Positions 38,008 to 46,477 of a DNA stretch of 64,000 nucleotides are shown here, piece after piece. The notes beneath the pieces were generated by a model. That model saw only the letters and a list, made by a program, of their open reading frames with translations. It was not told the origin of the DNA and searched no databases. Where the stretch lies: the NCBI RefSeq assembly GCF_029855045.1, contig NZ_CP123228.1, positions 2,108,001 to 2,172,000 on the forward strand, given 5' to 3'. The translations under genes were made by a program, and so were the position numbers. The stretch is from Piscinibacter sp. XHJ-5. GTDB taxonomy: Bacteria > Pseudomonadota > Gammaproteobacteria > Burkholderiales > Burkholderiaceae_C. The stretch's first letter is position 1. Every line of letters starts with the position of its first letter.

Positions 38008-38460
38008 ATGAGATCGTCCGCATTCGCCGCCGCCTTGGTCGCGGCCCTGATCGCCACCGGCTGCGCCACCCCGCGGCACGGCGCACCGGTTCCTGCCGCC
38101 CCGCAGGGCGGCAGTTACTACGGCAGCCAATACGGCGTTGTCCAGAGCATCGACACCGTGAGGGCGCAAAGCCAGACCAGCGGCGGCGGCGCCCTCGTCG
38201 GCGGCGCCGTCGGCGGTCTGGTGGGCCGCCAGCTCGAGCACGGCCGCAACCGCGACCTGGCCACCGGTGTCGGCGTCGTGGCCGGCGCGATCATCGGCAA
38301 CGAGATCGAGAAGAACAGCCGCGGCGCACGCGACATCTACCGCGTCACCGTGCAGCTGCGCGGCGGCGGGCTGCGCAGCTTCGACTACGCCTCCCTGAAC
38401 GACGATCTGCGCGTGGGCGATCGTGTCCGCATCGAGAACAACCAGCTGTATCGCTGGTAG
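38008..38460 (+). CDS. Glycine-zipper outer membrane lipoprotein
   Basis: A 150-residue lipoprotein with lipobox ATGC (Cys at about 16). A glycine-zipper two-helix hairpin (GGGALVGGAVGGLVGRQLEH, then GVGVVAGAIIGNEIEK) resembles SlyB/Pcp-type proteins, and the end YRVTVQLRGGGLRSFDYASLNDDLRVGDRV forms a small beta domain usual in that family. ATG 38008 has CAGGAG upstream. The family is structural in the outer membrane; it is likely a stress or housekeeping gene, here just before the thrS leader. Confidence 0.82.
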   Translation: MRSSAFAAALVAALIATGCATPRHGAPVPAAPQGGSYYGSQYGVVQSIDTVRAQSQTSGGGALVGGAVGGLVGRQLEHGRNRDLATGVGVVAGAIIGNEIEKNSRGARDIYRVTVQLRGGGLRSFDYASLNDDLRVGDRVRIENNQLYRW

Positions 38461-38473
38461 GCCGACCTTCGCC

Positions 38474-38479
38474 TACAAT
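38474..38479 (+). promoter_or_regulatory. Candidate -10 of the thrS leader promoter
   Basis: TACAAT, 34 bases before the leader-peptide ATG, fits a -10 element. A -35 box is not clear, since the expected place falls at the end of the glycine-zipper gene. Confidence 0.4.
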
Positions 38480-38512
38480 CGACGCTCTTCACGAACAAGG
38501 GCGAGAAAGGCA

Positions 38513-38560
38513 ATGCCGGTTATGACACCGCGAACTACCACCAGCAGCACTGCTGTGTAG
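38513..38560 (+). CDS. Threonine-rich leader peptide of thrS
   Basis: A 15-codon frame ([15 protein letters not shown]) with five Thr codons: one at codon 5, three in a row at 8-10 (38534-38542) and one at 13. It ends with TAG at 38558-38560. It is followed by an intrinsic terminator (38603-38629) before thrS. GAGAAAGG precedes the ATG. This is the layout of a threonine-charging sensor: slow translation at the Thr codons would expose GCCGCG (38564-38569), which can pair with CGCGGC (38606-38611) and so break the terminator stem. Translation and regulation are inferred, not shown. Confidence 0.75.
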
Positions 38561-38602
38561 CTGGCCGCGGCTCGTCTCGACTTCATCCTTCTCGTTCCCA
38601 CG

Positions 38603-38629
38603 AAGCGCGGCTCACCCCCGCGCTTTTTT
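38603..38629 (+). terminator. Attenuator terminator upstream of thrS
   Basis: An 8-bp stem (AAGCGCGG with CCGCGCTT) and a 7-base loop, followed by six T residues, about 20 bases before the thrS ATG. An alternative pairing between 38564-38569 and 38606-38611 would prevent this stem from forming. It probably terminates transcription when threonyl-tRNA is plentiful. Confidence 0.82.
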
Positions 38630-38649
38630 GTTTTCTACGGAGCTTTTCC

Positions 38650-40569
38650 ATGGTCTCGATCCAGTTGCCCGACGGTTCCAAGCGCGAGTACCCGAGCCCT
38701 GTCACCGTCGCCGAGGTGGCGCAATCCATTGGCAGCGGGCTGGCCAAGGCGGCGATCGCCGGGCGCATCGGGCAGGGCGATTCGGCGCGAGTGGTCGACA
38801 CGAGCTTTCGCATCGACCGCGACACGCCGCTGGCCATCGTCACCGAGAAGGACCCGGCCGGCCTCGAGGTCATACGCCATTCGACGGCGCATCTGCTCGC
38901 CTACGCGGTGAAGGAGCTGTTCCCGGAGGCCCAGGTGACGATCGGGCCGGTCATCGAGAACGGGTTCTACTACGACTTCTCGTACAAGCGTCCTTTCACG
39001 CCGGAGGACCTGGCCGCCATCGAGGCGAAGATGAGCGAGCTCGCGAAGAAGGACGAGAAGGTCGAGCGGCGCGTGCTGCCGCGCGACGAGGCGGTGGCGT
39101 ATTTCAAGGGCATCGGCGAGCACTACAAGGCCGAGATCATCTCCAGCATCCCGGCCGGCGAGGATGTGTCGTTGTACCGCGAGGGCGCATTCGAGGACCT
39201 GTGCCGCGGGCCTCACGTGCCCAGCACGGGGCGGCTGAAGCACTTCAAGCTGATGAAGGTGGCCGGCGCGTACTGGCGCGGCGACCACCGCAACGAGATG
39301 CTTCAACGCATCTACGGCACGGCGTGGGCGACGAAGGACGAGCTGCAGCAATACCTGCACATGCTCGAGGAAGCCGAGAAGCGAGACCACCGCAAGCTGG
39401 GCCGGGAGCTCGATCTTTTCCACATCGATGACCACGCGCCCGGCCTGGTGTTCTGGCATCCCAAGGGCTGGACGATCTGGCAGCAGGTCGAGCAGTACAT
39501 GCGGCAGGTCTACCGCGACAACGGCTACCGCGAGGTCAAGGGCCCGCAGATCCTCGATCAGGGCCTGTGGGAGAAGACGGGCCACTGGGACAAGTACCGC
39601 GAGAACATGTTCACGACGGAATCGGAGAAGCGCGACTACGCGCTCAAGCCGATGAACTGCCCCGGGCACGTGCTGATCTACAAGCAGGGCATCAAGAGCT
39701 ACCGCGACCTGCCGCTGCGCTACGGGGAGTTCGGCCAGTGCCACCGCAACGAGCCGACGGGCGGCCTGCACGGGATCATGCGAGTGCGCGGCTTCACGCA
39801 GGACGACGGCCACATCTTCTGCACCGAGGACCACATCCTGGCGGAGTGCGTCGCCTACACGGCACTGCTGCAGCGGGTCTACAAGGACTTCGGCTTCAAG
39901 GACATCATCTACAAGGTCGCCACGCGCCCCGACGCGCGGATCGGCTCCGACGAGGTCTGGGACAAGGCCGAGGCGGCGCTCATCGAGAGCCTGAAGGCCT
40001 CGGGCTGCGAGTTCGACATCGCGCCCGGCGAGGGGGCGTTCTACGGCCCGAAGATCGAATACACGCTGAAGGACGCCCTGGGCCGCCACTGGCAATGCGG
40101 CACGATGCAGGTCGACTTCTCAATGGCCGGGCGTCTGGGCGCCGAGTACGTGGCCGAGAGCGGCGAGCGGCGCACGCCGGTCATGCTGCACCGGGCGATC
40201 GTCGGTTCGCTCGAGCGTTTCATTGGCATCCTGATCGAGGAGCACGCGGGCGCCTTGCCCGTCTGGCTGGCCCCGGTGCAGGTGGTGGTGCTCAATATCA
40301 CGGAAGCGCAAGCGGAATATGCGGCCGAAGTGGTGAAATCGCTTCAAAAACAAGGGCTTAGAGTTGAATCCGATTTGCGCAACGAGAAAATCAACTATAA
40401 AATCCGGGAGCATTCGATGCAGAAGGTCCCGTTTCTCCTTGTCGTCGGCGACAAGGAGAAGGCCAACGGGGCCGTTGCGGTGCGCGCCCGGGGCAATCAG
40501 GACCTGGGTGTGATGCCCCTGGCAGACTTCCACGCGAGGATCGCCAGCGACATCGCCCACAAGGTGTGA
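38650..40569 (+). CDS. thrS: Threonyl-tRNA synthetase
   Basis: A 639-residue class II synthetase: TGS domain (1-61), editing domain with [17 protein letters not shown] (about 76-100), catalytic core with motif 2 ([15 protein letters not shown]), zinc ligand Cys in KPMNCPGH, and the C-terminal anticodon-binding domain. It charges tRNA-Thr and edits Ser-tRNA-Thr. GGAG at 38639-38642 precedes the ATG at 38650. The upstream leader and terminator imply control by Thr-tRNA level. It starts the translation operon; infC follows 83 bases later. Confidence 0.97.
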
Positions 40570-40652: not shown

Positions 40653-41201
40653 ATCGCTACTTTTGCTGACCGCCGTACTCCCAACGCCGAGCGCAAGCAC
40701 CGCCTGAACCGGGAGATCATGGCACCGGAAGTCCGTTTGAACGGCGTCGAGAACGAGCCCCTGGGCATCGTTCCGATCCAGGAGGCCCTGCGCATGGCAG
40801 GCGACCTGGACGTGGACCTGGTGGAGATCGCCGCGCAGGCGGATCCCCCGGTGTGCCGCCTGATGGACTACGGCAAGTTCAAGTACCAGGAGCAAAAGCG
40901 CGCAGCGGAAGCCAAGGCCAAGCAGAAGGTCATCGAGGTCAAGGAAGTGAAGTTCCGCCCCGGCACCGACGAGGGCGACTACCAGATCAAGATGCGCAAC
41001 CTGCGCCGCTTCATCGAGGAGGACGGCGACAAGGGCAAGGTGACCTTGCGGTACAGAGGCCGCGAAATCACCCACCAGGAGATCGGCATGCGCCTCCTGG
41101 AACGCATCCGCGACGAACTGGCGGATGTGGCAGTCGTGGAGAACATGCCAAAGCTCGAAGGGCGCCAGATGATCATGGTGCTGGCCCCGAAGCGGAAGTA
41201 A
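40653..41201 (+). CDS. infC: Translation initiation factor IF-3 (rare AUC start)
   Basis: A 182-residue IF-3 when read from the ATC codon at 40653-40655. The protein then begins [27 protein letters not shown], matching the length (about 180) of other IF-3 proteins, whereas the first ATG at 40719 would cut off the N-terminal 22 residues. An in-frame TGA (40647-40649) just before rules out an earlier start, and GAGG at 40641-40644 is well placed. infC is well known to use AUU or AUC starts, letting IF-3 repress its own translation. The IF-3 N domain and C domain follow. Confidence 0.93.
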
Positions 41202-41537: not shown

Positions 41538-41894
41538 ATGCCTCGCGTCAAACGTGGTGTCACCGCCCGCGCACGTCACAAGAAGGTTCTCGCGCTCGCC
41601 AAGGGTTTCCGCGGCCGCCGCAAGAACGTGTTCCGCATCGCCAAGGAAGCGGTGATGCGGGCTGGGCAATATGCCTACCGTGACCGTCGCACCAAGAAGC
41701 GTGTTTTCCGCCAGCTCTGGATCGCCCGCATCAACGCGGCGAGCCGGGGACTGGGGCTGACCTACAGCAAATTCATGGCTGGCTTGAAGAAGGCGTCGAT
41801 CGACATCGACCGCAAGGTTCTCGCCGACATGGCTGTCAACGATCCTGCCGCCTTTGGCAGCATCGTCGAAAAGGTGAAGGCCCAGCTCGCTTGA
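41538..41894 (+). CDS. rplT: 50S ribosomal protein L20
   Basis: A 118-residue basic protein ([20 protein letters not shown]) with the L20 core [27 protein letters not shown]. It binds 23S rRNA early in assembly, and in E. coli also represses rpmI-rplT translation. CTGAAGGAG precedes the ATG. Its stop TGA overlaps the ATG of a short 38-codon frame that runs through the terminator to pheS. Confidence 0.97.
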
Positions 41895-41965: not shown

Positions 41966-41993
41966 AAGGCCGACCTCACGATCGGCCTTTTTT
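41966..41993 (+). terminator. Intrinsic terminator between rplT and pheS
   Basis: An 8-bp perfect stem (AAGGCCGA with TCGGCCTT, loop CCTCACGA) followed by TTTTTT, ending 14 bases before pheS ATG. It can end the rplT transcript and may be conditional for pheST, as in E. coli, where pheST is attenuated. A Phe-rich leader peptide was not found. Confidence 0.8.
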
Positions 41994-42006
41994 CTTTCTG
42001 CATCCG

Positions 42007-43050
42007 ATGAACGACCTCGATCAACTGGTGCTCGACGCCCAGACCGACTTCGCGAAGGCGCCGACGCCCGCAGAGCTGGAGAACGCGAAGGCGCGCTATC
42101 TCGGCAAGGCGGGCCGCGTCACCGAGCTGCTGAAGGCGCTGGGCGCGCTCACCGCCGAGGAAAAGAAGTCCCGCGGCGCGCTGATCAACGCCGCCAAGCA
42201 GCAGGTCGAATCCGCGCTCAACGCGCGCCGCCATGCGCTGGCCGAGGCCGAGCTCGAGCAGCAGCTCAAGAGCGAAGCGCTGGACGTCACGCTGCCGGGC
42301 CGCCGCCGGGGCGAAGGTGCCGTGCATCCGGTCATCCGCACGATGGAGCGCATCGAGCAGATCTTCGGCTCGATGGGTTTCGACATCGCCGACGGCCCCG
42401 AGATCGAGACCGACTGGTACAACTTCACCGCGCTCAACAGCCCCGAGAACCATCCGGCGCGCTCGATGCAGGACACCTTCTACGTCGACGCCAAGGATGC
42501 CGAAGGCCGCTGGCTCAATCTGCGCACCCACACCTCTCCGATGCAGATCCGCTATGCGCGCGCGCATGCGAAGAAATATGCGAGCGCGGCCCGCATGCCG
42601 GACATTCGCGTCATCGCCCCGGGCCGCACCTACCGGGTGGACAGCGACGCCACGCACTCGCCGATGTTCCACCAGGTCGAGGGCCTGTGGGTCGGCGAGA
42701 ACGTGAGCTTCAAGGACCTGAAGGTGATGTACCTCGACTTCATCCAGGCCTTCTTCGAGACCACCGAGCTGCAGCTGCGCTTCCGGCCGAGCTACTTCCC
42801 GTTCACCGAGCCCAGCGCCGAGATCGACATCATGTTCGAGCACGGGCCGCTGGCCGGCAAATGGCTCGAGGTGTCGGGCTCCGGCCAGGTGCATCCGCAG
42901 GTCATCCGCAACATGGGTCTCGATCCGGAGCGCTTCATCGGCTTCGCCTTCGGCTCCGGCATCGACCGGCTGGCGATGCTGCGCTACGGCATCAGCGACC
43001 TGCGCCTGTTCTTCGACGGCGACCTGCGCTTCCTGTCCCAGTTCAAGTAA
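42007..43050 (+). CDS. pheS: Phenylalanyl-tRNA synthetase alpha subunit
   Basis: A 347-residue alpha subunit: N-terminal coiled coil (about 1-90), then the class II catalytic core with [14 protein letters not shown], motif 2-like [19 protein letters not shown], and motif 3 [22 protein letters not shown]. With PheT it forms the alpha2beta2 enzyme that charges tRNA-Phe. It lies 14 bases after a terminator and 15 bases before pheT. Confidence 0.97.
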
Positions 43051-43065
43051 ACGGAAACTCGAGCA

Positions 43066-45483
43066 ATGCAATTCCCCGAGTCGTGGCTGCGCGAGTTCTG
43101 CGATCCGCCGCTGTCCACCGCCGATCTGGCCGACCTGCTCACCATGTCCGGCATGGAGGTCGAAGACCTGCGCCCGGCCGCACCGCCGTTCACGAAGGTG
43201 GTGGTCGGCGAGGTGCTGTCCGTCGAGCGGCACCCCAACGCGGACAAGCTCACCGTGTGCCGGGTCGATGCAGGCAGCGGGCAGATGCTGAACATCGTCT
43301 GCGGCGCGCCGAACGTGAAGGCCGGCATCAAGGTGCCCACCGCGCTCGTGGGTGCCGAACTGCCGCCGGCGGAAGAAGGCGGGAAGCCGTTTCAGATCCA
43401 TCTCGGCCAGCTTCGCGGCGTGGAAAGCCAGGGCATGCTCTGCTCGGCACGCGAGCTCAAGCTGTCCGATGACCACGCGGGCCTCCTCATCCTTTCCGAG
43501 GACGCTGCGGTGGGCCAGGACATCCGCCAGCATCTGGGACTCGACGACACGCTGTTCACGCTGAAGCTCACGCCCAACCTCGGCCACTGCCTCAGCGTGT
43601 ACGGCATCGCTCGCGAGGTCGCTGCGCTGACCGGCACGCCGCTCAAGCAGCCGTCCTTTCCGCCCGCGCAGCTGCGGCATGAGCAGAAGCTGCGCGTCAC
43701 GGTGGAGGCAGCCGACCTGTGCGGACGCTTCTCGGGCCGCATCGTGCGCAACGTGGACACGAAGGCCCGCACGCCGGCGTGGATGGTCGACCGCCTCGCG
43801 CGTTGCGGCCAGCGCTCGGTCACCGCGCTGGTCGACATCTCGAACTATGTGATGTTCGAGTACGGTCGGCCGTCGCACATCTTCGATCTCGACAAGATCC
43901 AGGGCGGCCTCACCGTCCGCTGGGGCCGCCGCGGCGAATCGCTGAAGCTGCTGAACGGCAGCACCATCGAGGTCGACGAGCAGGTCGGCGTGATCGCCGA
44001 CGACCAGGCGGTCGAGTCGCTCGCCGGCATCATGGGCGGCGACCGCACGGCGGTCTCCGACGACACGAAGAGCGTGTACGTCGAGGCCGCCTTCTGGTGG
44101 CCGCAAGCCGTGGCGGGCCGCTCGCGCCGCTACAACTTCGCCACCGACGCGGGCCATCGCTTCGAGCGCGGCGTCGATCCCGCGCTGACCGTCGAGCACA
44201 TCGAACGCATCACGCGGCTCATCATCGACATCTGCGGCGGTGAAGCAGGCCCGATGGACGACCACGTCGTCGCGCTGCCCGAACGCAGACCCGTCACGCT
44301 GCGCGTGGAGCGCGCGGCCAAGGTGATCGGCATGCCGGTCACGCAGGCCGATGCGGCCGGCGTGATGAAGCGCCTGGGCCTGCACACCAGCGAGGGCGAC
44401 GGCGTCCTGAAGGTCACGCCGCCCAGCTGGCGCTTCGACCTGCAGATCGAGGAGGACCTCATCGAGGAGGTGATCCGCATCCTCGGCTACGACAAGCTGC
44501 CCGACGCGCCGCCGATGGCGCCGGTGCGCGCGCGCGTGCGCAGCGAGTCGCGACGCAGCCCGCACGCGCTGCGCCGCACGATGGCCGAGCGCGGCTACGT
44601 CGAGACCCTCAACTTCAGCTTCGTGGAGGAGCGCTGGGAACGCGAGCTTGCCGGCAACGATGATCCGATCCGCGTTCTCAATCCCATTGCGAGCCCGCTG
44701 GCGGTGATGCGCTCCAGCCTGCTCGGCAGCCTGGTGCAGGTGCTGCGCTACAACCTCGCGCGCAAGGCGCCGCGGGTGCGGGTGTTCGAAGTGGGCCGTG
44801 TGTTCTTGCGCGATGCGTCCGTCACCGACACGGATGCGAGCGTGGCCGGCGTGCGTCAGCCGATGCGCCTGGGTGGACTGGCCCATGGCAGCGCCGACGA
44901 TCTGCAATGGGGCGCCAGGGAGCGCCACGTGGACTTCTTCGATGTGAAGGGCGATGTCGAGGCGCTGTTCGCACCGAAGGCGGTGCGTTTCGTGCCCGCC
45001 AGCCATCCGGCGCTGCATCCTGGCCGCGCGGCCTGCGTCGAAGTCGACGGCCGTGCCGTGGGCATCATCGGCGAGCTGCACCCGCGCTGGCGCCAGGCCT
45101 ACGAGCTGCCGACCGCGCCCATCGTTTTCGAGCTGGAGCTCGATGCGCTGGTGACGCGCGATGTGCCGCGCTTCGAGCCGATTGCGCGCCACCAATCGGT
45201 GTGGCGCGACATCGCGGTGATCGCCAAGGAAGCGGTGACGCACGATGCGCTGATGCAGGCCATCCAATCCGCGCAGACGCCGCTGGTGCGCTCGGCGCAG
45301 CTGTTCGACATCTACAAGCCGTCGCAGCCGGCAGCCGACATCCATGCCGGCGAGCGCAGCCTGGCGGTGCGCCTCGAGCTGCTGGACGACGACGCCACGC
45401 TGACCGACGAGCGTATCGACGCCGCGGTGGCACAAGTCCTCGATACCTTGGGCTCGCGCCTCGGCGTGCGGCTGCGGAGCTGA
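43066..45483 (+). CDS. pheT: Phenylalanyl-tRNA synthetase beta subunit
   Basis: An 805-residue beta subunit in the usual order: tRNA-binding OB domain ([21 protein letters not shown], about 45-150), B3/B4 editing domain, B5, catalytic-like core, and C-terminal FDX-ACB (anticodon-binding) domain ending near SRLGVRLRS. The beta subunit helps bind tRNA-Phe and removes Tyr-tRNA-Phe. The gene is followed closely (4 bases) by ihfA, the usual pheST-ihfA order. Confidence 0.97.
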
Positions 45484-45487
45484 CGCC

Positions 45488-45859
45488 ATGGCCGACAACG
45501 ACAACAAGAATCAACCCGGCGCGCGCGTCGTCCTGCCCAGCCTGGAGACGCCCACGCTGACCAAGGCCGAGCTCGCGGAGCTCCTGTTCGAGCGCCTGGG
45601 CCTCAACAAGCGCGAGTCCAAGGACATGGTCGAGGCGTTCTTCGACATCATCCATGCGACCCTGGTGTCGGGCCAGGACGTGAAGATGTCCGGTTTCGGC
45701 AACTTCAACATCCGGCGCAAAGCTCCGCGGCCTGGCCGTAATCCGCGAACCGGCGAGGCGATTCCCATCAAGGCGCGCAACGTTGTCACATTTCATGCGA
45801 GCCACAAACTCAAGGGGGTCGTGCAAGGCGACATACCTTCGGGGGAGGAGTTCGAGTAA
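45488..45859 (+). CDS. ihfA: Integration host factor alpha subunit
   Basis: A 123-residue DNA-bending protein of the HU/IHF family. Residues from about 25 give the core [33 protein letters not shown], and [25 protein letters not shown] contains the beta-arm with the Pro tip that intercalates into DNA. The N-terminal about 20 residues are a short extension. It forms a heterodimer with IhfB. The MerR gene downstream starts 36 bases later. Confidence 0.95.
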
Positions 45860-46400: not shown

Positions 46401-46477
46401 CGGGGTGTAGCGCAGCCTGGTAGCGCACTTGCATGGGGTGCAAGGGGTCGCGAGTTCGAATCCCGCCACCCCGACCA
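46401..46477 (+). tRNA. tRNA-Pro (anticodon GGG)
   Basis: A 77-base tRNA including the encoded 3' CCA. The acceptor arms CGGGGTG and CACCCCG pair, the D arm has AGCGCAGCCTGGTAGCGC, the anticodon stem-loop CTTGC-ATGGGGT-GCAAG gives anticodon GGG, and the T arm contains the GTTCGAATC sequence. It reads CCC and, by wobble, CCU. The 3' end borders a decayed accessory region, and tRNA ends are common integration sites. Confidence 0.97.

Follow-up and report, generated by a model that had tools for sequence, protein, structure and literature searches.

A threonine-codon leader and an intrinsic terminator before thrS in Piscinibacter sp. XHJ-5 and other Burkholderiales: a probable attenuator

The threonine--tRNA ligase gene thrS of Piscinibacter sp. 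XHJ-5 is preceded by a short reading frame rich in threonine codons and by an intrinsic terminator, and the two recur together before thrS in most of the relatives surveyed. Judged by these sequences and by modelled folds, the arrangement is very probably a classical ribosome-mediated attenuator that senses charged tRNA-Thr. Amino-acid attenuation of thrS had been proposed in an earlier note on this DNA, and the Thr codons of relatives, the joint presence of leader and terminator and the predicted switching of folds support that reading; the dependence on charged tRNA-Thr itself is what we infer from the sequence comparison and the modelling. The thrS leader belongs to an already known class, the leader-peptide attenuators of synthetase genes. 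In E. coli, the known control of thrS is a translational operator bound by ThrRS. An essential synthetase gene would thus have, across much of one order, a regulator unlike the textbook E. coli case, and a swap of control on one gene is suggested, with a ThrRS-binding hairpin in other orders and a leader-peptide attenuator here.

The thrS locus, its leader frame and its presumed promoter

The features of the locus are given below in coordinates of the window, by which we mean the whole stretch of 64,000 nucleotides that was analysed.

38474..38479, + strand: -10-like box TACAAT of the putative thrS promoter, 48 nt upstream of the leader ATG
38503..38510, + strand: Shine-Dalgarno-like GAGAAAGG of the leader frame, recognised from the sequence
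38522..38560, + strand: thrS leader peptide frame, 12 codons and TAG, with the conserved start, Thr codons 2 and 5 and a Thr-rich tail
38602..38634, + strand: intrinsic terminator, its arms 38602-38610 and 38618-38626 enclosing a 7-nt loop, followed by a T-rich tract that runs to 38634
38650..40569, + strand: thrS, threonine--tRNA ligase (TIGR00418, 727 bits, E 1.4e-218)
40719-41201, + strand: infC, downstream gene of the presumed thrS operon
41538-41894, + strand: rplT, downstream gene of the presumed thrS operon
42007-43050, + strand: pheS, downstream gene of the presumed thrS operon
43066-45483, + strand: pheT, downstream gene of the presumed thrS operon
45488-45859, + strand: ihfA, downstream gene of the presumed thrS operon

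The thrS product carries the Pfam domains TGS, tRNA_SAD, tRNA-synt_2b and HGTP_anticodon, and thrS stands first in the gene order thrS-infC-rplT-pheS-pheT-ihfA, which rests on domain and profile matches for these six genes. From gene order and spacing, the genes from infC to ihfA are presumed to be co-transcribed with thrS and would then be co-regulated with it. Upstream lies the gene of a glycine-zipper protein (PF05433), which ends at 38460. The sole tRNA gene of the window encodes tRNA-Pro, at 46401; none is located upstream of thrS.

The earlier note had described a frame of 15 codons at 38513-38560 with five Thr codons, three of them consecutive, and then a stop, and this is what the sequence holds (ATG at 38513, TAG at 38558-38560). 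It should be noted that the second ATG of the frame, at 38522, is the start conserved among relatives, with ATG in 185 of 186 collected leaders, and that the ATG at 38513 is in frame but upstream of it; the leader is therefore best read as 12 codons, five of them for Thr. AGG, GGA or GAG occurs 5-18 nt ahead of the leader start in 173 of the 186 leaders, and the window thus has, as an attenuator would, a short frame with a ribosome binding site and cognate codons, which would be translated in the cell. Among its five Thr codons ACA is used once and ACT twice, two codons that together make up 1 of the 87 Thr codons in the six genes of the thrS operon. The leader stop and thrS are 89 nt apart.

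A box of the form TA[ACT]AAT was found 75-20 nt ahead of the leader ATG in 68 of 138 loci of the window's family, and in 52 of these 68 it lies at -48 to -54; a control stretch gave 1 of 118. The box was recognised by this conservation of position among family loci; a scan for consensus promoters returned no promoter before the thrS leader. This conserved position, downstream of the neighbouring gene and ahead of the leader, makes it most likely that the leader has a promoter of its own, with TACAAT as the putative -10 element, and the terminator probably sits within the thrS transcript. Transcription would start about 35 nt before the leader frame.

Conservation and range of leader and terminator

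Within the window's family, where the nearest named thrS genes are those of Roseateles, Rubrivivax, Methylibium and Rhizobacter, thrS was detected in 117 of 120 genomes, the window's own included. Upstream regions were taken in for 109 of these, and eight were left out (gene split, contig edge, or not taken). A looser form of the collecting motif was used for the leader in the survey, by which 93 of the 109 loci had both leader and terminator, 11 the terminator only and five neither, and no locus had the leader alone. Among named loci, a set that partly overlaps with that of the family, 80 records were returned, one of them (L090) without upstream sequence; the remaining 79 comprised 52 with both elements, 21 with the terminator only, five with neither and one, L054, with a leader and a degenerate terminator. 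The terminator-only named loci include six Limnohabitans records, and L049, whose apparent leader is a part of the upstream gene, was removed from the leader set and is nevertheless counted as terminator-only in the survey. Thus, the terminator was found with the leader in 93 of 93 family and 52 of 53 named loci, and the joint occurrence in relatives for which the earlier note had called was observed in 93 of 109 family loci. Several leaderless family loci (L077, L096, L110, L159, L163 and others) retain a terminator of the GCGCGG type; in L110 it lies just 27 nt past a TAAAAT box, with no leader frame.

The leader set comprised 186 distinct leaders, 143 from the window's family and 43 from eight other family groups. 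When these were aligned, codon 1 was ATG in 185, codon 2 ACA in 184 and codon 3 CCG in 185 of the 186; codon 4 was CGA in 168, CGG in ten and CTG in eight, codon 5 was ACT in 164 and ACG in 22, and GTT directly preceded the ATG in 179. As the leaders were gathered by motif, the invariance of codons 2-5 is in part a matter of ascertainment. Beyond codon 5 the sequence drifts. In the tails of leaders from the window's family Thr makes up 25% of residues in frame and 1.7 and 2.4% in the two alternative frames, and in those from other families 14% as against 2.3 and 4.5%; it ranks first among tail residues in the former and second to Arg in the latter. The Thr codons on which the earlier note had laid weight are therefore conserved, with codons 2 and 5 near universal in the collected leaders and a tail enriched in Thr in the reading frame alone. 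Apart from T2 and T5, the leaders of many relatives contain few Thr codons (e.g. MTPRTFPSLI and MTPRTQELLLLAR), and around the fixed core the number of Thr codons ranges from two in MTPRTFPSLI to nine in MTPRTTTTTTSTSTEV, a natural series on the minimum of cognate codons per attenuator.

A hairpin with a T tract follows all 186 leaders, the one of L054 being degenerate (this locus was left out of the fold and stem tests). The stems differ among relatives (GCGCGG/CCGCGC, GTGCGG/CCGCAC, GCACGG/CCGTGC and ACGCGC/GCGCGT); because hairpins were searched for, their pairing is given by construction, whereas their variety is not.

Nine family groups of the order share the leader start [GC]GTT-ATG-ACA-CCG-C(GA/GG/TG)-AC. 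A search for the pattern SGTTATGACACCGCKRAC in 399 genomes of the order gave 54 exact matches, one per genome and from nine family groups, and six matches with one mismatch. All 54 exact matches, the surroundings of each having been read, lie directly upstream of thrS, seven of them in loci of the window's family; mismatched matches were read for five of the six from the order and for one of seven from the class, and none of these is near thrS. In a looser search, 33 of the 40 matches taken, all of which are among the 54, lie before thrS, and the other seven, each with two or three mismatches, lie elsewhere. At the level of the class (274 genomes) the exact motif was found only in three genomes of the window's family.

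From 108 matched genomes of the order, forty further loci, all lacking the motif, were selected by hand, and these represent 39 family groups. Seven of them, from seven families, have ATG-(1-3 codons)-CGA-AC[TG] upstream of thrS, where shuffles lead one to expect 0.14; the leaders read MQRTSTKTITYLG, MTLRTCTKH, MNILRTATLM, MSFRTTTTGTLNQG, MGFRTCMPDSMHRF (with one Thr), MFKRTTTTRISR and MSFRTRMTTDA. By sequence, 16 family groups of the order thus have a leader of this type before thrS, and for seven of these groups it was seen at a single locus each. That Thr leaders of different sequence, such as MFKRTTTTRISR and MSFRTTTTGTLNQG, stand before thrS in families without the motif counts in favour of the attenuator. 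Three consecutive Thr codons within a short ATG frame were seen in three of the 40 loci, and runs of this kind were formed by Thr alone; when frames were instead counted by three or more of a given residue, Val (12 loci) and Arg (8) were commoner than Thr (7).

Another possible explanation is that the leader senses translation in general, or an amino acid other than threonine, for instance through slow decoding of a rare CGA codon, and that its Thr codons are incidental outside the window's group. CGA is indeed rare (5 of 187 Arg codons in the six genes of the thrS operon), it fills codon 4 in the great majority of the collected leaders and recurs in the core of the seven other families, whose search pattern included it, and some leaders have two Thr codons only. 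We nevertheless consider this quite improbable, for codon 4 is CTG (Leu) in the eight exceptions mentioned, which come from three families and keep Thr at positions 2 and 5, Thr ranks first or second among tail residues, and the gene controlled is the Thr synthetase.

Some of these observations count against the attenuator. Many leaders have few Thr codons besides the conserved two, the first 15 bases of the leader vary less than the attenuator model requires, and the terminator occurs without the leader in 11 of 109 family and 21 of 79 named loci. One could imagine that the near-invariant [GC]GTT-ATG-ACA-CCG-CGA-ACT is a second device atop the attenuator, either a programmed slow stretch of the rare codons ACA, CGA and ACT or an early stalling peptide M-T-P-R-T, which would position the ribosome so that two Thr codons suffice for sensing, and that such a sensor with two codons took the place of the ThrRS operator at or near the base of the order. 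We regard this as rather unlikely.

Competing helices and predicted folds

The terminator that the earlier note had placed before thrS is found with its stem at 38602-38626, between the leader frame and thrS at 38650. The stem has nine pairs, one such hairpin being found as against 0.2 expected in shuffles of the stretch, and 23 bases separate it from the thrS start. Three regions upstream and within it can pair in mutually exclusive ways:

38524..38532, + strand: region 1, GAC-A-CCGCG, overlapping leader codons 1-4 and predicted by folding to pair with region 2 when the ribosome is absent
38564..38576, + strand: region 2, GCCGCGGCTCGTC, common to helix 1:2 and to antiterminator 2:3 in the folds
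38600..38611, + strand: region 3, ACGAAGCGCGGC, 3' side of the antiterminator, overlapping the 5' arm of the terminator

Both pairings named in the earlier note are present: GCCGCG at 38564-38569 is complementary to CGCGGC at 38606-38611, and CCAG at 38541-38544 to CTGG at 38561-38564, the latter as a part of the fold predicted for a leader free of ribosomes. The antiterminator extends further than had been described, by TCGT (38572-38575) with ACGA (38600-38603). A third competing helix, 1:2, is formed by GAC (38524-38526) and CCGCG (38528-38532) with CGCGG (38566-38570) and GTC (38574-38576), and in the predicted fold it leaves the terminator free when the ribosome is absent. A direct pairing of region 1 with the terminator arm was also considered and rejected: the window does show complementarity between the two, but there are families in which region 1 is constant and region 3 is not. 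A stop codon followed by GTCG as a general partner of CGAACT was borne out only in part, in 22 of 143 leaders of the family and four of 43 elsewhere.

Folding of the window leader gave helix 1:2 plus the terminator without a ribosome, the 2:3 antiterminator and no terminator with the ribosomal A site at Thr codon 5, and the terminator with the ribosome at the stop. With the stall at Thr5 the antiterminator wins even when the 3' arm of the terminator is present (-22.9 kcal/mol), and the switch is on with the ribosome at codons 2-10, which include all five Thr codons, and weakens at codons 11-13. The stall-minus-stop difference of the window was reached by one of 25 shuffles and the stall-minus-free difference by none of 25. 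In a simple duplex test (200 shuffles) the window's 2:3 helix gave p=0.04 and its 1:2 helix p=0.15. That the antiterminator and the terminator exclude one another is thus predicted clearly in the window and statistically in the family, and that a stall at cognate codons favours the former and arrival at the stop the latter is a prediction of the folds alone.

The mechanism would then be as follows. With plentiful threonyl-tRNA the ribosome would reach the stop codon and cover region 2, whereupon region 3 would pair with the 3' arm of the terminator and transcription would end before thrS. When threonyl-tRNA is scarce, it would wait at the Thr codons (in the window, at any of those within codons 2-10) and cover region 1, so that regions 2 and 3 could form the antiterminator and the polymerase would continue into thrS. 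In the absence of a ribosome, region 1 would capture region 2 and the terminator would form.

Across 185 leaders the mean sequestration of the terminator arm, under the assumptions of equilibrium and of a fixed ribosome footprint, was -8.3 kcal/mol with the stall at codon 5, -5.0 at the stop and -4.0 with no ribosome. The stall exceeded the stop by more than 1 kcal/mol in 122 of 185 leaders and was weaker by more than 1 kcal/mol in 21. For 137 non-redundant leaders, stall minus stop was -3.5 kcal/mol as against -0.6 in dinucleotide shuffles, and stall minus free -4.4 as against -0.9. More negative than the shuffle mean were 104 and 115 of the 137, respectively (76 and 90 of the 106 family leaders, 28 and 25 of the 31 from other families), and 45 and 61 lay singly beyond 95% of their own shuffles; as the leaders are related by ancestry, p-values for such comparisons overstate independence. 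The direction was unchanged when the footprint edges were shifted inwards or outwards by 3 nt (90 and 111 of 137). In 70 of 113 leaders the tail Thr codons occupy stronger switch positions than the non-Thr codons. An earlier test by pairing probability (means 0.72 for stall, 0.56 for stop, 0.48 for free and 0.63 for shuffled stall) separated the ribosome states less well than the energy form used later.

When leaders were swapped between the family and other families, the stalled state became only about 1 kcal/mol weaker, the own leader being the stronger in 62 of 106 family and 21 of 31 other cases. The stall-stop difference hardly changed for terminators of the family (-3.28 with the own and -2.93 with the swapped leader), and for those of other families it was -4.32 as against -1.60. 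In the simple duplex test, helices 1:2 and 2:3 surpassed shuffles in the family (mean z of -1.13 and -1.10, respectively), and in other families they were no better than shuffles (mean z -0.38 and -0.17). The conservation of competing pairings that the earlier note had asked for is hence borne out in part: the folds lend it statistical support against shuffles, but clean paired substitutions were not found, and on the simplest test the signal is weak outside the family.

Known systems and other explanations for the arrangement

E. coli trpL, thrL and pheM-pheST are leader-peptide attenuators. The thrS leader resembles trpL, thrL and pheM in its short frame with cognate codons, its exclusive helices 1:2, 2:3 and 3:4 and its intrinsic terminator; unlike them, it precedes thrS, and its frame opens with MTPRT, which is nearly invariant, while its cognate codons are often few. 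Gram-positive thrS genes are under T-box control, in which, as proposed here, the charging of tRNA is sensed and a terminator competes with an antiterminator. In a T-box the RNA binds the tRNA directly, whereas here Rfam at gathering scores gave no leader family and no T-box in the whole window, and at E<=5 the stretch 38400-38720 gave just two weak unrelated matches. A literature search of open-access scope returned no recognisable description of a thrS leader in this order; a paper by Lopatovskaya et al. from 2010 (Mol Biol 44:128), which reportedly treats the attenuation of amino acid and aminoacyl-tRNA operons, may predict one.

The earlier note had called this type of control unusual for thrS, a claim which stands only in a weakened form. 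Leader-peptide attenuators of the synthetase genes pheST, trpS and leuS are described in PMC1262725, and one of a hisS paralog in Bacillus in PMC2965389. For thrS itself, PMC8079986 proposes thrL, an attenuator with a Thr-containing leader peptide before thrS, in Streptomyces lividans TK24. As given there, thrL differs from the leader described here in its peptide (MKRVRPFLETTPGFVPAR, with two Thr and, by eye, no resemblance to MTPRT), in its leaderless transcript, in a hairpin without a U tract and in belonging to another phylum (PMC8079986).

The E. coli operator shares with the proposed attenuator a feedback on thrS via the Thr charging system and differs in that a protein recognises an anticodon-like hairpin at the ribosome site. 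That ThrRS binds such a tRNA-Thr-like operator in the present leader as well, and blocks translation, seems very improbable. We found a hairpin with a Thr anticodon (5 bp, 9-nt loop, CGT or GGT followed by A) upstream of thrS in 12 of 29 loci (0.3 expected), which belong to other orders of the class and are the best-scoring 29 of the 52 genomes matched outside the window's family. These hairpins start 34-75 nt before thrS; the 9-nt loop was fixed after the 29 sequences had been viewed, so that this count is partly post hoc, and a stricter form with a 7-nt loop was found in three of the same best-scoring 29 of 52. By analogy, the 12 hairpins among the best-scoring 29 of 52 look like ThrRS operators of the E. 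coli type in several orders. Such hairpins are not above chance in the order studied here, with one among the 186 leaders of the MTP[RL]T set (AGT loop; 0.7 expected from shuffles) and one among the 40 loci from the rest of the order (TGT loop, located 119 nt upstream of thrS; 0.3 expected). In the window, no Thr-anticodon hairpin lies near the ribosome site of thrS, terminator stem and thrS start are only 23 bases apart, and the T-rich tract after the hairpin agrees with termination. In this order the leader and the terminator appear to stand in place of the ThrRS operator.

To the idea that the terminator merely ends an upstream transcript such as that of tRNA-Val, the short frame being a translational enhancer with no attenuation, we give hardly any credence, even though tRNA-Val(GAC) lies at most 200 nt upstream of thrS in 31 of the 40 motif-free loci of the order, terminator-only arrangements occur and re-initiation at leader frames is proposed for short leader-to-gene distances in PMC4833913, because the only tRNA gene of the window is that of tRNA-Pro, the -10-like box probably puts the terminator inside the thrS transcript, leaders without a terminator number none of 109 and one of 79 loci, the ribosome-dependent switch exceeds shuffles, and 89 nt from leader stop to thrS was taken as far for re-initiation. 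tRNA-Val(GAC) was also found at most 400 nt upstream of thrS in 18 of the 29 class loci (the best-scoring 29 of 52), and its presence near thrS both in the order and in other orders of the class suggests that this neighbourhood is an older linkage. A terminator-like hairpin of -9 kcal/mol or stronger stands before thrS in 29 of the 40 motif-free loci.

Two minor observations concern genes downstream of thrS. The ATG-started frame of infC at 40719 lacks the first residues of the profiles, with IF3_N matching from position 7 and TIGR00168 from 13, and the true start is therefore probably an unusual codon further upstream; the infC gene of E. coli has an unusual start codon. The pheM attenuator of E. 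coli lies in what we take to be the same conserved gene order as the thrS-pheT stretch here. The 112 bases that separate rplT from pheS were read and show no obvious Phe-rich frame; the gap contains, at 41966-41999, a perfect 8-bp hairpin (AAGGCCGA/TCGGCCTT) followed by a T-rich tract.
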